A stretch of 64,000 nt of DNA from Bdellovibrionales bacterium CG10_big_fil_rev_8_21_14_0_10_45_34 (GTDB lineage Bacteria > Bdellovibrionota > Bdellovibrionia > Bdellovibrionales > 1-14-0-10-45-34). The stretch's first letter is position 1. The number at the start of each line of letters is the position of its first letter. The position numbers and the translations under genes are program-made. Below the pieces are notes generated by a model. It saw nothing but the letters and a program-made list of their open reading frames with translations, did no database searches and was not told the DNA's origin. This document shows, piece by piece, positions 6,528-11,682 of the stretch. Location: contig PEZS01000010.1 in assembly GCA_002778785.1 (NCBI GenBank), positions 186,001-250,000 on the forward strand, written 5' to 3'.

Positions 6528-6950
6528 CTAAGCTGCTACGTTCCCGAGCTTGTGGCTATAAACCATATTGGGCAGGTGGACCTCAATGGAGTCATATTTG
6601 AACTTCAGCTTGGGGAGCTTGGTGTTTCGATTGTCCCCAACATCCTCAATAACTATGAAACCTGCCGCCGCCAAGCTGTCACAGTCCTTTTTCACGTTTG
6701 CAAAGTCCCGACCCACCAATTTAGCCAGTTGATAAACCGAAGTGGGCTTTAAGTTGTGAATTGCCGCTAGAATCATATATTTCTGCTCACTCATAAGCTT
6801 CTGATAAACGGCTACTGAGGCAAAAATTAAAACATCAGGAGACTGAATCAACCTTTTTTTGCTCTTGATAACTTCTTTAAGTTCACTTCGGGTACGGTCT
6901 TTGAAGTCTTCCCAGGCTTCAAATGTAATTTTCAAAGTTTTACTTTTCAT
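6528..6950 (-). CDS. HTH antitoxin/regulator, HVO_A0114-COG4190 type (TumA-like)
   Basis: A 140-residue protein with a winged-helix domain in the middle (MILAAIHNLKPTSVYQLAKL, then VGRDFANVKKDCDSLAAAGF). This is the pattern of the COG4190/HVO_A0114 regulators that accompany TumE-type toxins. The N-terminal ~45 residues are helical and charged (FEAWEDFKDRTRSELKEVIK). Its ATG at 6950 lies inside the end of the restored toxin frame (stop at 6940-6942), an 11-base overlap typical of toxin-antitoxin operons. A short hairpin (GAGCC-TGTCG-GGCTC, 6503-6517) follows the stop. It should bind and neutralise the toxin and repress the operon; that is inference from the family. Confidence 0.75.
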   Translation of the reverse strand: MKSKTLKITFEAWEDFKDRTRSELKEVIKSKKRLIQSPDVLIFASVAVYQKLMSEQKYMILAAIHNLKPTSVYQLAKLVGRDFANVKKDCDSLAAAGFIVIEDVGDNRNTKLPKLKFKYDSIEVHLPNMVYSHKLGNVAA

Positions 6951-7253
6951 TACTCACGATCCTTTCAGTCTCGCCAATAAAACTCTCAAAGGCTTCATAA
7001 AAATCTTTTGCATCCAAGGCGACACGGGTTGTTTTGTCCTTCGGTAGTCCCGCGTGAATATGGAACCCAAAGGGTGCATGGTTATCAACAAGAAGTCGCG
7101 CCAGGTTACTGCCCCCATATCTATCAGCACAAACCGGGCTTTAATACCCTCTGGGTATTTTTCAGTTGGTTCAACTTCATAAACTTTAAGCTCGACCCGA
7201 TAGTTCTCGGTAAGTTGAAATGACTGGTCCCAAACAAGCTTCGCATCACCCAT
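6940..7253 (-). pseudogene. TumE-family toxin gene with a frameshift in a five-G tract
   Basis: The ATG at 7253 begins a frame (MGDAKLVWDQSFQL ... EGIKARFVLIDMG) that resembles TumE (formerly DUF6516). It then runs into a nonsensical tail ending at 6954. The missing conserved C-terminus is in another frame: RLLVDNHAPFGFHIHAG, then KDFYEAFESFIGETERIV, stopping at 6940-6942. The two frames join exactly if the run of five Gs on the minus strand (7112-7116) had six, giving IDMGGSNLARLLVDNH. The toxin is thus either inactivated, switched by slippage, or misread in assembly. The restored protein would be about 104 residues and its end overlaps the antitoxin start. Confidence 0.72.
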
Positions 7254-7840: not shown

Positions 7841-8077
7841 TTAAGCACCCTTTTTATATTTTGCAAGGCCCTCTGTAATGAACTTGCGCATGAGGGTCTG
7901 GTAAGGAACTTCCATCTGCAAAGCCAACGCCTTCAGCCCTGTGATAATTTCTTCGGGCAGGTTAACGCTCGTGGGGTGTTTGCGCTTGGTCTTAGCCTTG
8001 GAATACGCATCCTTGACAGCCTTGGCGTTAAATTTGACGCTTGCATAGCCTTTTTCATTCTTTACATAGTTCGCCAT
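7841..8077 (-). CDS. CopG/ribbon-helix-helix family protein (antitoxin-like)
   Basis: A 78-residue basic protein. Its C-terminal half (PTSVNLPEEIITGLKALALQ, then VPYQTLMRKFITEGLAKY) is a ribbon-helix-helix motif with the strand TSVNLP, typical of CopG-type antitoxins and repressors. The N-terminus is lysine-rich. An AGAGGAG sits eight bases before the ATG. No intact toxin partner is adjacent, only a 29-codon ORF behind it. An orphan antitoxin or a free-standing regulator are both possible. Confidence 0.65.
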   Translation of the reverse strand: MANYVKNEKGYASVKFNAKAVKDAYSKAKTKRKHPTSVNLPEEIITGLKALALQMEVPYQTLMRKFITEGLAKYKKGA

Positions 8078-8388: not shown

Positions 8389-8814
8389 TCAGTAACAGTT
8401 TGGGTTTTTTGTGTGAGGAGGGCAATGAAAGTCCTTAACGGGATTTTTTGCCTCATGGCAATTGAGTCTTGTTGAATAGCCGCCTTCAAAAACTAACGTT
8501 TGATAGGGGTTATTTGCAATTCGAGTAAAGTGATCGATGTAAAAAACATCGGGCAACTGATCATTGGATTGAGGGGACTTTTCAAATCTTTGGACATGTC
8601 CACCAGCATCGTAAGTTGTTTGGGCAAGCATGTATTCTGCCCAATAGTTGGCTCGTCCATTCTTGCCAAACCAAAGAACCGCGTCATTGCTTCCCTTGAA
8701 GTGAACCGAGTAGCCGTAATAGTTCGCGACTTCTTCGCAGTACTCGAAATCCGCACCGTATGCTGCCTGGCCACCTATGATTAAGAGCAATGTATAAGTT
8801 AGTATCGTTTTCAT
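8389..8814 (-). CDS. Hypothetical secreted protein
   Basis: A 141-residue protein with a clean signal peptide (MKTILTYTLLLIIGGQAAYG, cleaved before ADFEYC). The mature part has five cysteines, a hydrophilic tail FHCPPHTKNPNCY, and no domain I recognise. A run of purines (AAAAAGGGGG) lies upstream of the ATG. It is transcribed divergently from the LysR-type regulator at 8921, whose target it may be; this is a guess from orientation only. Confidence 0.6.
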   Translation of the reverse strand: MKTILTYTLLLIIGGQAAYGADFEYCEEVANYYGYSVHFKGSNDAVLWFGKNGRANYWAEYMLAQTTYDAGGHVQRFEKSPQSNDQLPDVFYIDHFTRIANNPYQTLVFEGGYSTRLNCHEAKNPVKDFHCPPHTKNPNCY

Positions 8815-9872: not shown

Positions 9873-10295
9873 TTATTGAATCGGCTTGTAACAACACTTT
9901 TTGTGAATTTTAACCTCTATGACTTTTTCTAGTTTGTTATCAGGGATAAACACAAGATGCCAGATCTCTTTGCTTTCACCGGGGTATGGCATAATTTTGT
10001 ATGCGTAAATTGTGTCACTAAAAAAGTAACTGTCGGGGTCGCCAAGCTCAGTACGCACCAGTTTCATGGGCTTGCCCACGTATAGCTGATTGACTACAAT
10101 GTGAACAGCCATCGACTCACGTTTCGTATGGTCGCCATTTTTAAATAAACTTTTATCAAGTTTTTTTATTCCCCATTTTTTTTGTGCTTCACTTGGGGAC
10201 ATGAAGTCTCCACGATAATATCCTGAGCTAGCAAATGCTATAAAGCAATATAAAGGCAAGAGTGCTGAGAATAGGGCGAATCCTTTAAATTTCAT
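9873..10295 (-). CDS. Small secreted protein, last gene of the XRE/DUF6973 unit
   Basis: A 140-residue protein with a signal peptide (MKFKGFALFSALLPLYCFIA). The mature part contains LYVGKPMKLVRTELGDPDSY followed by beta-rich sequence ending VIEVKIHKKCC. This GxxxxxVxxxLGxPD pattern is reminiscent of BamE/SmpA-like periplasmic folds, but I would not name a family. Its ATG overlaps the stop of the DUF6973 gene (ATGA), and an AAGGAGG inside that gene serves as its ribosome binding site. The two are therefore translationally coupled and probably act together. If DUF6973 is toxic, this could be an immunity or partner protein; that is speculation. Confidence 0.6.
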   Translation of the reverse strand: MKFKGFALFSALLPLYCFIAFASSGYYRGDFMSPSEAQKKWGIKKLDKSLFKNGDHTKRESMAVHIVVNQLYVGKPMKLVRTELGDPDSYFFSDTIYAYKIMPYPGESKEIWHLVFIPDNKLEKVIEVKIHKKCCYKPIQ

Positions 10296-10951
10296 TTTGC
10301 CTCCTTTGGGATGGGCAGTCCAGGACTTATAACGTCAAGATTTTTATTTTGAAGTTCCTCAATTGCTTTGGCTTCGAGTGTTTTTTCGTTCCACTTGTTG
10401 TTTTTAAGAAGAGCTTCGGCCGCGGATTGACCGCGTTCGTTGTTAAAGATATCCATTTGCTTTTCACGGTTTGATTGGAGCGGGTTGGTTTCGTGAGCAT
10501 CGAGATATTCTTTTGCTTTTTGTCGGCCCAGTTCCTTGGTTAGCAGGCCGGCCCAAACAAAGTGCCTAAAGGCATCACTCTCGTCATTAAGGTCTTGGTT
10601 AGGGAAGTTGCGGTTGGTAGCATCTTCCGCACGACCTTTTAGCTTATACACGGAGTAGGCTTGTTTAGGATTTTTAACGACAAGTTCTTTCTCAGCCTGG
10701 GTTAATCCTGGGTAAAAAACAAGTTTTGAAAGTAATGACCCTTTTTCTTTGGGCTTACACAATTCATCGCATTGGTTTGGGCACATAAAGGTGCCCATGT
10801 CTGTCATTAGCGTCGCACAGTTAAGTTCGCAATTTTTTGAACCCGTTTCAAGCTTGCTTCCTCTAAACCAATCGACACAATCCGGGTCAGCTGCGGTAGC
10901 GTTGCTTACGATTGAGAGGAGAGCGAAAAAAGTAATCCTATTAAGCCACAT
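10292..10951 (-). CDS. Secreted DUF6973-like protein
   Basis: A 219-residue exported protein (signal peptide ending NATA-ADPDC). A cysteine-rich segment of about 60 residues (seven Cys between positions 24 and 66) comes first. Then comes a DUF6973-type domain: ESDAFRHFVWAGLLTKELG, then AHETNPLQSNREKQMDIFNN with E-R-G. The conserved D-A-F-R-H and HE...MD..NN residues look like an active site, but no activity is established that I know of. The gene overlaps the preceding XRE antitoxin-like gene by 11 bases and the next gene by four, so it belongs to a tightly packed four-gene unit. Confidence 0.68.
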   Translation of the reverse strand: MWLNRITFFALLSIVSNATAADPDCVDWFRGSKLETGSKNCELNCATLMTDMGTFMCPNQCDELCKPKEKGSLLSKLVFYPGLTQAEKELVVKNPKQAYSVYKLKGRAEDATNRNFPNQDLNDESDAFRHFVWAGLLTKELGRQKAKEYLDAHETNPLQSNREKQMDIFNNERGQSAAEALLKNNKWNEKTLEAKAIEELQNKNLDVISPGLPIPKEAK

Positions 10952-11261
10952 TAATCTTAACTTCTGCGTTTGGATAAATTGTGTTTAAAAATTTCATGAG
11001 CCGATCTATTGTGAACTCTTCTATATTATAATGGACAACCTTGCTGATCAGGGATTCGTTCTCACCAATCTTTTCGGCAAGCTCTCTTTGAGTCATACGT
11101 TTTTTGTTTTTGTAAATTACGATTTCCTGGCAGATGGCGTACTTAGTGCGATCTATGGCAGAAGCATCTTTGGGTAAAACCTTAGACGCAGGTCCTTTTG
11201 AAAGTCGTTCACGCACTTCTTTTAATTCAGCATCTGAAGGAAATTTTGTTTGTTTGCCCAT
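10941..11261 (-). CDS. XRE-family HTH protein, HigA-like antitoxin
   Basis: A 106-residue protein with a C-terminal helix-turn-helix of the HTH_37 kind: MTQRELAEKIGENESLISKV, then FTIDRLMKFLNTIYPNAEVK. The first ~45 residues are charged and hydrophilic. It follows the toxin-like gene by six bases, the order seen in HigBA-type modules where the toxin gene comes first. The family usually neutralises its partner and binds a palindrome over the promoter. A 22-bp palindrome lies at 11586-11607 and is the obvious candidate operator. Confidence 0.78.
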   Translation of the reverse strand: MGKQTKFPSDAELKEVRERLSKGPASKVLPKDASAIDRTKYAICQEIVIYKNKKRMTQRELAEKIGENESLISKVVHYNIEEFTIDRLMKFLNTIYPNAEVKINVA

Positions 11262-11267
11262 TTTATT

Positions 11268-11567
11268 TTACCTCCGATCAACGCGAAATGCGTTGATGAC
11301 TCCTAAATAATCATCAGAAATACAAATAAGAAGCACGAGGCGAAATGGTGAATTGTTTTTCAGTACAGGTTCGACGGTGAAATATTGAAATTCGCCATGC
11401 ACTTCTTCAAGAGGAAAAGTTTGACCATCTAATGCTTGAATAAGATCAAGAATTAATTGGTCATTAACCGATTCAGCATGCTTTTCCTTGTAATGCTGAT
11501 CGATAATGACTCGATTTAGATTTCTACCGTTGATATTTATTCTTAGGTTATATTTTGGTCGAGTCAT
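11268..11567 (-). CDS. Putative toxin of an XRE-associated toxin-antitoxin pair
   Basis: A 99-residue protein I cannot place in a named family. It begins MTRPKYNLRININGRNLNRV, has IIDQHYKEKHAESVNDQLIL in the middle and ends FRLVLLICISDDYLGVINAF. The final strand pattern (YRLV...IGVINAYR) recalls RelE/HigB-like folds. I chose the ATG at 11567; the longer TTG start at 11585 would place the start inside the promoter's -10 element. A toxin role is inferred from size, first place in the operon and the HigA-like partner behind it. A different role in the four-gene unit is possible. Confidence 0.6.
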   Translation of the reverse strand: MTRPKYNLRININGRNLNRVIIDQHYKEKHAESVNDQLILDLIQALDGQTFPLEEVHGEFQYFTVEPVLKNNSPFRLVLLICISDDYLGVINAFRVDRR

Positions 11568-11575
11568 CAAAACAG

Positions 11576-11604
11576 ACTCTACCAAAGTTTGACAAATTTG
11601 TCAA
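11576..11604 (-). promoter_or_regulatory. Promoter of the toxin/XRE/DUF6973 unit, probably leaderless
   Basis: On the minus strand TTGACA (11599-11604) matches the -35 consensus exactly. After 17 bases comes TAGAGT (11576-11581), 4/6 to the -10 consensus. Transcription would start at about 11567-11569, at or one to two bases before the ATG of the first gene, so the mRNA has no room for a ribosome binding site. The -35 is embedded in a perfect palindrome, which suggests autorepression. Confidence 0.65.
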
Positions 11605-11607
11605 ACT
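11586..11607. promoter_or_regulatory. 22-bp perfect palindrome (probable operator) touching the tRNA-Glu 3' end
   Basis: The core GTTTGACAAATTTGTCAAAC is a perfect inverted repeat, extended by one A/T pair on each side. It covers the -35 element of the toxin-XRE unit and its outer base overlaps the last base of the tRNA-Glu CCA. Such a site suits a dimeric XRE repressor. It lacks a T tract and so is a poor terminator for the tRNA. Its position also makes this the junction between the core genome and the accessory stretch. Confidence 0.65.
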
Positions 11608-11682
11608 GGCGTTCCCACGGGGATTCGAACCCCGGTATCCACCGTGAAAGGGTGGTGTCCTAGGCCTCTAGACGATGGGAAC
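11607..11682 (-). tRNA. tRNA-Glu (TTC), CCA encoded
   Basis: The minus strand folds as a standard tRNA: acceptor GTTCCCA/TGGGAAC, D-arm with GTCTAGAGGCCTAGGAC, anticodon loop CTTTCAC with anticodon TTC, and T-arm GGGGTTCGAATCCCC. Discriminator G and an encoded CCA follow (11607-11609). It reads glutamate codons GAA/GAG. The CCA end coincides with the edge of the toxin-antitoxin unit. tRNA 3' ends are common integration sites for mobile elements. Confidence 0.96.

Follow-up and report, generated by a model that had tools for sequence, protein, structure and literature searches.

We analysed a stretch of 64,000 nucleotides (the window, G000:C10:186001-250000) from the 3.06 Mb genome of Bdellovibrionales bacterium CG10_big_fil_rev_8_21_14_0_10_45_34. 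Directly after a tRNA-Glu gene the window carries four co-directional genes on the minus strand, g1 to g4, which appear to join a toxin-antitoxin (TA)-like pair (g1-g2) to a predicted exported toxin (g3) and its predicted immunity protein (g4). The named genomes used for comparison were mostly metagenome-assembled genomes of Bdellovibrionota. The features of the locus are:

11607-11682, minus strand: tRNA-Glu (TTC), found with ARAGORN; its CCA end abuts the promoter and operator of the unit
11586-11607, no strand: perfect 22-bp palindrome AGTTTGACAAATTTGTCAAACT, predicted operator of g2, covering the -35 element
11576-11604, minus strand: sigma-70-type promoter (TTGACA, 17-base spacer, TAGAGT) whose -10 element is preceded by TG; predicted start at about the first ATG
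11268-11567, minus strand: g1, ATG start, 99 aa, toxin-like, of an unnamed family paired nearly always with g2-type genes
10941-11261, minus strand: g2, 106 aa, XRE/HTH_37 antitoxin-like regulator (Pfam HTH_37, E 6.7e-8)
10292-10951, minus strand: g3, 219 aa, predicted exported toxin, on the evidence of DUF6973 (E 5.6e-20), an AlphaFold model, fold matches and invariant residues
9873-10295, minus strand: g4, 140 aa, secreted, with a C-terminal Cys-Cys motif; predicted BamE-like immunity protein, from its adjacency to g3 and hhalign comparison with BamE

The four-gene layout described in a first-pass annotation of this DNA was borne out by the gene coordinates: g2 and g3 overlap by 11 bp (10941-10951), g3 and g4 by 4 bp (10292-10295). 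No terminator-like site was found on the minus strand inside the unit. An alternative TTG start at 11585 would lengthen g1 to 105 aa. The promoter proposed earlier was recovered at 11604-11576 and ranked best among five promoter-like sites of the region. The palindrome over its -35 element was likewise confirmed. It is the sole perfect 22-bp palindrome in the 64 kb (0.017 expected), and its 18-bp core has no second site with up to two mismatches in the 3.06-Mb genome. The unit had been drawn slightly too short, as the palindrome reaches 11607, three bases beyond the end given, and shares the last base of the tRNA-Glu gene, an overlap that had been missed. The consensus promoter lies about seven bases before the first ATG of g1. 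The suggestion that transcription starts at this ATG is probably right: judged from sequence, the g1-g4 transcript is probably leaderless, and the geometry of operator and start is conserved among g1 homologues. A point against leaderless initiation is the GGTAGAG before the g1 ATG, which could act as a ribosome-binding site. It is also possible that the unit is transcribed by read-through from tRNA-Glu.

The helix-turn-helix (HTH) match of g2 lies above the Pfam cut-off. For g1 no Pfam or NCBIfam family was found, nor a PHROG match with a meaningful E-value. The g1 family is present in 32 of 98 genomes of the order; its invariant residues include Y6, N13, D23, H25, G89, N92 and R95, and a g2 homologue comes directly after nearly every copy examined. 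A search of viral contigs found no g1 homologues. Upstream of the g1 homologues, inverted repeats often occupy the same place with differing sequence (TTGACAAATTTGTCAA, CTTGCAATATATTGCAAG, AGTTTCCCAAATTTGGGAAACT). Compared with shuffles, they were significant at 13 of 29 loci with p ≤ 0.01 and at 17 of 29 with p ≤ 0.05. The repeat centre is 25-30 nt before the start codon in most of these loci, including the first 11 listed, and a -10-like element directly precedes the ATG, often with too little space left for a Shine-Dalgarno sequence. Repeats that keep their place and vary in sequence are to be expected if a changing repressor regulates its own leaderless promoter. With two small genes, an HTH antitoxin and an operator-like palindrome at the promoter, g1-g2 is a predicted type-II-like TA pair, in which g1 would be toxic and g2 would neutralise it. 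Identification of g1 as HigB was rejected (hhalign probability 0.2% with a HigB-like profile, and no Pfam or NCBIfam match), as was a DUF4258/MqsR-like toxin (hhalign probability 0.4% with the DUF4258 profile). The label 'HigBA-like' given to the pair at first therefore holds for its organisation only. A distant relation of the g1 fold to HigB/RelE is possible.

The g3 protein consists of a signal peptide (to about residue 20), a six-cysteine domain (25-65) and DUF6973 (about 75-213), the last matched above the Pfam cut-off. An AlphaFold model built from 45 sequences reached a predicted local distance difference test score (pLDDT) of 89.8; prediction from the single sequence gave 40. Its helices span residues 95-115, 124-141, 143-153, 161-183 and 189-201. 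With VIA-align the top match was BteO (PDB 9uu0), a Bacteroides fragilis type VI secretion system (T6SS) effector, with Z 14.3. Animal Wnt proteins followed with Z 11.3-13.5 and root-mean-square deviations (rmsd) of 2.4-2.7 over 122-136 residues: Wnt7a (Z 13.5, rmsd 2.4, 135 residues), Wnt3a (Z 13.1) and Wnt8 (Z 11.3-11.8). Helical folds may score high by arrangement alone, which tells against reading much into such values; the Wnt and BteO rows stood well clear of the rest, serum amyloid A3 reaching Z 6.9 and the following unrelated rows Z 4.5. Also to be set against the fold assignment is that Foldseek alone gave no match between the g3 model and the PDB at E ≤ 0.001. Independently of the fold, a sequence profile reached BteO 9uu0 with E 4.8e-7.

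The residues D126, A127, R129, H130, W133, H153, E154, D167, N170 and N171 were invariant in the 45 sequences, which come from several phyla. In the model H130, E154 and D167 lie on helices or at their ends. In the segment N170-N171-x-x-G174 both asparagines are invariant and the glycine is present in at least 90% of the sequences; an arginine follows the glycine in some homologues only, and g3 of the window has Q there. The Lipocone superfamily, for which an attack on lipid head groups is predicted, was defined by Burroughs, Nicastro and Aravind (eLife 2025, PMC12419801). Its SAA-Wnt clade is characterised there by a His/Glu/Asp site in helices H2/H3/H4 and an sNxxGR motif in H4. In g3 we found a helical Lipocone core with a fifth helix, the His/Glu/Asp residues and an sNxxGR-like motif. 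Because the model matches both BteO and the animal Wnts, the DUF6973 domain of g3 is, as modelled, a Min-Wnt-type Lipocone toxin domain of the SAA-Wnt clade. The first-pass annotation had named the domain only as DUF6973; as modelled, it is of Lipocone type and no orphan. Toxicity, a lipid target and the export route are predicted for g3. Neither DUF6973 nor PDB entry 9uu0 was named in the open-access literature searched. DUF6973 occurred at three loci in viral contigs. A search for Ntox44 as a relative gave no match in these genomes and none in the control genomes either.

The g4 gene lies directly 3' of g3 in 31 of 42 Bdellovibrionota loci. Searched alone, g4 of the window, like g1, fell into no family of Pfam or NCBIfam and had no PHROG match with a meaningful E-value; its comparison with BamE in hhalign gave a probability of 65% (E 5.8e-5). 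The genome has a second DUF6973 gene (L077, G000:C11:428128-428909), a long lipoprotein-like form in a 461-aa frame. The L077 protein is without the six-cysteine domain, and the adjacent g4 paralogue matches Pfam BamE above the cut-off. According to PMC12419801, BamE-like proteins are the most widespread immunity partners of such toxins. We predict from these sequence relationships that g4 is a BamE-like immunity protein that would neutralise g3. The earlier proposal that the exported pair might be an effector with its immunity protein is thus probably correct, g3 having the Lipocone fold and g4 being BamE-like and adjacent. At three loci (L059, L062, L108) an Exo_endo_phos-like gene, and not g4, follows the DUF6973 gene. 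Contexts of DUF6973 in other phyla, taken from reading the sequences rather than from hidden Markov models, included a YD-repeat-type sequence upstream (L137), a WXG100-like sequence (L144) and small membrane proteins downstream (L133). At the last locus, from Candidatus Endomicrobium, the DUF6973 gene is followed by a series of small membrane proteins that are alike and by a second fragment of DUF6973, so that the locus resembles an immunity-gene array.

A search with the six-cysteine N-terminal domain alone recovered it from 36 of 196 genomes. At least nine loci (L222, L223, L224, L231, L232, L233, L235, L236, L181) have an HExxH (zincin-like) domain as the C-terminal part instead of a Lipocone, with weak Pfam metallopeptidase matches, and the next gene encodes a lipoprotein that looks BamE-like; at L181 this lipoprotein matches Pfam BamE above the cut-off. 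At one locus (L226) the tip is SLT-like, that is lysozyme-like, by a sub-threshold Pfam match. Since one N-terminal domain is joined to Lipocone, zincin-like and SLT-like tips, and a small gene such as g4 is adjacent, we conclude that these proteins probably form an exported polymorphic-toxin system of Bdellovibrionota to which g3 belongs. The common module may mark a delivery route.

Is the linkage of the two pairs accidental? In related genomes the pairs mostly stand apart. The full order g1-g2-g3-g4, including the g2/g3 overlap, is repeated in G052, which belongs to another family. In G006, g1-g2 (88% and 93% identical) are followed by about nine conserved g3 codons before the similarity stops, which indicates that the locus probably had g3 in the past. 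At 9 of 47 loci TA or TA-like genes lie directly upstream of such a toxin on the same strand, compared with 1 of 40 directly downstream as a control (Fisher p 0.015; 0.025 leaving the window out), although these counts are small and partly hand-classified, a Fic gene and a lone HTH gene being included. Besides the window and G052, the nine comprise:

L076: DUF4258 and MqsA-type genes, both below Pfam cut-offs
L070: MNT and HEPN
L068: winged-HTH and NTase-like genes
L082: HTH_3
L134: Fic
L232: HigB and HigA
L223: AbiEi-like and NTP_transf_8 genes

The conservation of the four-gene order that the first-pass annotation called for was thus found in part: it recurs in G052 and has left a remnant of g3 in G006, while elsewhere the place of g1-g2 is taken by other TA families. 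A number of observations weigh against a functional unit. Unrelated genes precede most g3-g4 pairs, and most g1-g2 pairs are free-standing. In G052 a stop codon interrupts g1, several loci have a truncated or frameshifted g3, and decayed copies are frequent. Some TA genes lie near such toxins and are not adjacent to them; in G070 this TA pair stands at the same tRNA-Glu with a GNAT gene in place of g3-g4. The linkage of TA genes and toxins is nevertheless more than accident, though it is absent from most copies. The idea that TA pairs are general cargo carriers was rejected, as for most g1-g2 pairs the gene downstream does not overlap them.

We favour, with better than even confidence, a single autoregulated transcript for both pairs, the TA pair acting inward and the toxin-immunity pair outward. 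The HTH antitoxin g2, probably together with g1, would bind the palindrome over the -35 element and repress the leaderless promoter. The g3 protein would leave the cell by its Sec signal, with the six-cysteine domain serving as a trafficking or packaging module that is probably stabilised by disulphides, and its Lipocone domain (His130/Glu154/Asp167) would attack phosphate-linked lipid head groups, for instance of lipid II or phospholipids, in neighbouring or prey cells. In the periplasm of the producer the BamE-like g4 would block g3. If the antitoxin were lost under stress, g1 would be set free and g3-g4 would rise as well, because the genes overlap or abut without a terminator-like site between them; in this way the antitoxin may control the exported toxin. 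The TA pair may also make loss of the cassette costly. More tentatively, and with rather less than even confidence, many TA families could be interchangeable regulatory or addiction heads of exported polymorphic-toxin operons in Bdellovibrionota, in which the antitoxin would make the release of a Wnt-fold or zincin-like toxin depend on stress inside the cell. If true, this would be a weapon of two tiers, one toxin acting inward and the other outward, beneath one repressor.

The main competing explanation, which we regard as rather unlikely, is that a variable island left of tRNA-Glu, a site of gene exchange, gathers TA and toxin-immunity pairs, and that g3-g4 uses the g1-g2 promoter by accident, without regulatory meaning. 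The neighbourhood lends it some weight. A second TA-like pair lies at 6528-7253 (minus strand; one protein of 99 aa and a winged-HTH protein of 140 aa that is HVO_A0114-type by Pfam, E 5.4e-15), a BrnA-like open reading frame (ORF) at 7841-8077 adds to the TA-rich stretch, G+C is lower left of tRNA-Glu than on the right, and decayed copies are numerous. At the G070 locus (L079, G070:C44) g1-g2 occupy the same tRNA-Lys/tRNA-Glu site and the GNAT acetyltransferase gene that follows overlaps them. Chance juxtaposition does not, however, readily account for at least five TA families upstream on the same strand (9/47 loci against 1/40 directly downstream), or for the four-gene order in another family (G052) and, probably, formerly in G006; moreover, a flanking repeat of the end of tRNA-Glu was looked for in the window region and not found.

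That g3 and g4 are instead two secreted predation effectors seems improbable. The lineage is related to predators, and PMC12419801 describes two-gene Lipocone systems of Bdellovibrionota in which a further effector comes second (CapCone-2 family); yet g4 resembles BamE, the commonest immunity type for Min-Wnt toxins in the same source, the zincin-tipped relatives likewise precede BamE-like lipoproteins, and small membrane or secreted proteins come after the DUF6973 genes of other phyla. We give equally little credence to g1-g2 being a two-gene regulator without a toxin, whose palindrome controls envelope-related genes including g3-g4. Its appeal is that g1 matches no known toxin family; a small protein with an HTH_37 partner, an operator at the promoter, patchy distribution and degenerate copies are, on the other hand, the layout of a TA module. 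The single autoregulated transcript remains our preferred reading.

Some further features were noted nearby. The pair at 6528-7253 is TumE/TumA-like by layout. Between a LysR gene and the BrnA-like ORF lies a 141-aa secreted orphan (8389-8814, minus strand) with no Pfam match. In G070 a weak, below-threshold tRNA-Glu-like fragment follows the GNAT gene of L079.

On this reading, kin of predatory bacteria (Bdellovibrio relatives) have bacterial proteins close to the Wnt fold, which are predicted to be exported as toxins and to have protective partners. The locus also suggests that TA repressors can control outward-aimed weapons. The first-pass annotation knew of no described system of this kind. 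For the exported pair this no longer stands, as a toxin domain of this sort with a BamE-like partner fits a type already described in 2025 (PMC12419801). For the TA-headed arrangement it does: no description of TA-headed operons, or of a six-cysteine module with swappable tips, was found in the open-access literature searched, which is weak evidence and covers that paper in part.

Compared with HigBA-layout type II modules, g1-g2 is alike in gene order, size, HTH antitoxin and an operator over the promoter; it differs in that g1 has no HigB or DUF4258 profile match and two exported genes follow in the unit. BteO has the same domain as g3 by both profile and fold, and is a T6SS effector by its entry title, whereas the signal peptide of g3 is of Sec type and no connection with a T6SS was seen. 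The remaining comparisons are with systems described in PMC12419801. The Min-Wnt/prok-SAA Lipocone toxins resemble g3 in fold, His/Glu/Asp site, NNxxG motif and export, and their BamE-like immunity proteins resemble g4, which is BamE-like and adjacent. The Lipocone toxins described there have cystatin-like or secretion-system domains where g3 has a six-cysteine N-terminal domain, and g3-g4 has a TA pair upstream in an overlapping unit; the passages of the paper that were consulted mention neither of these two features. TelC/TipC belongs to another Lipocone family and uses another secretion route, the type VII secretion system; like the predicted g3-g4 pair, it combines a Lipocone toxin that acts on lipid head groups outside the cytoplasm with an immunity protein, and so provides a precedent for the mechanism.
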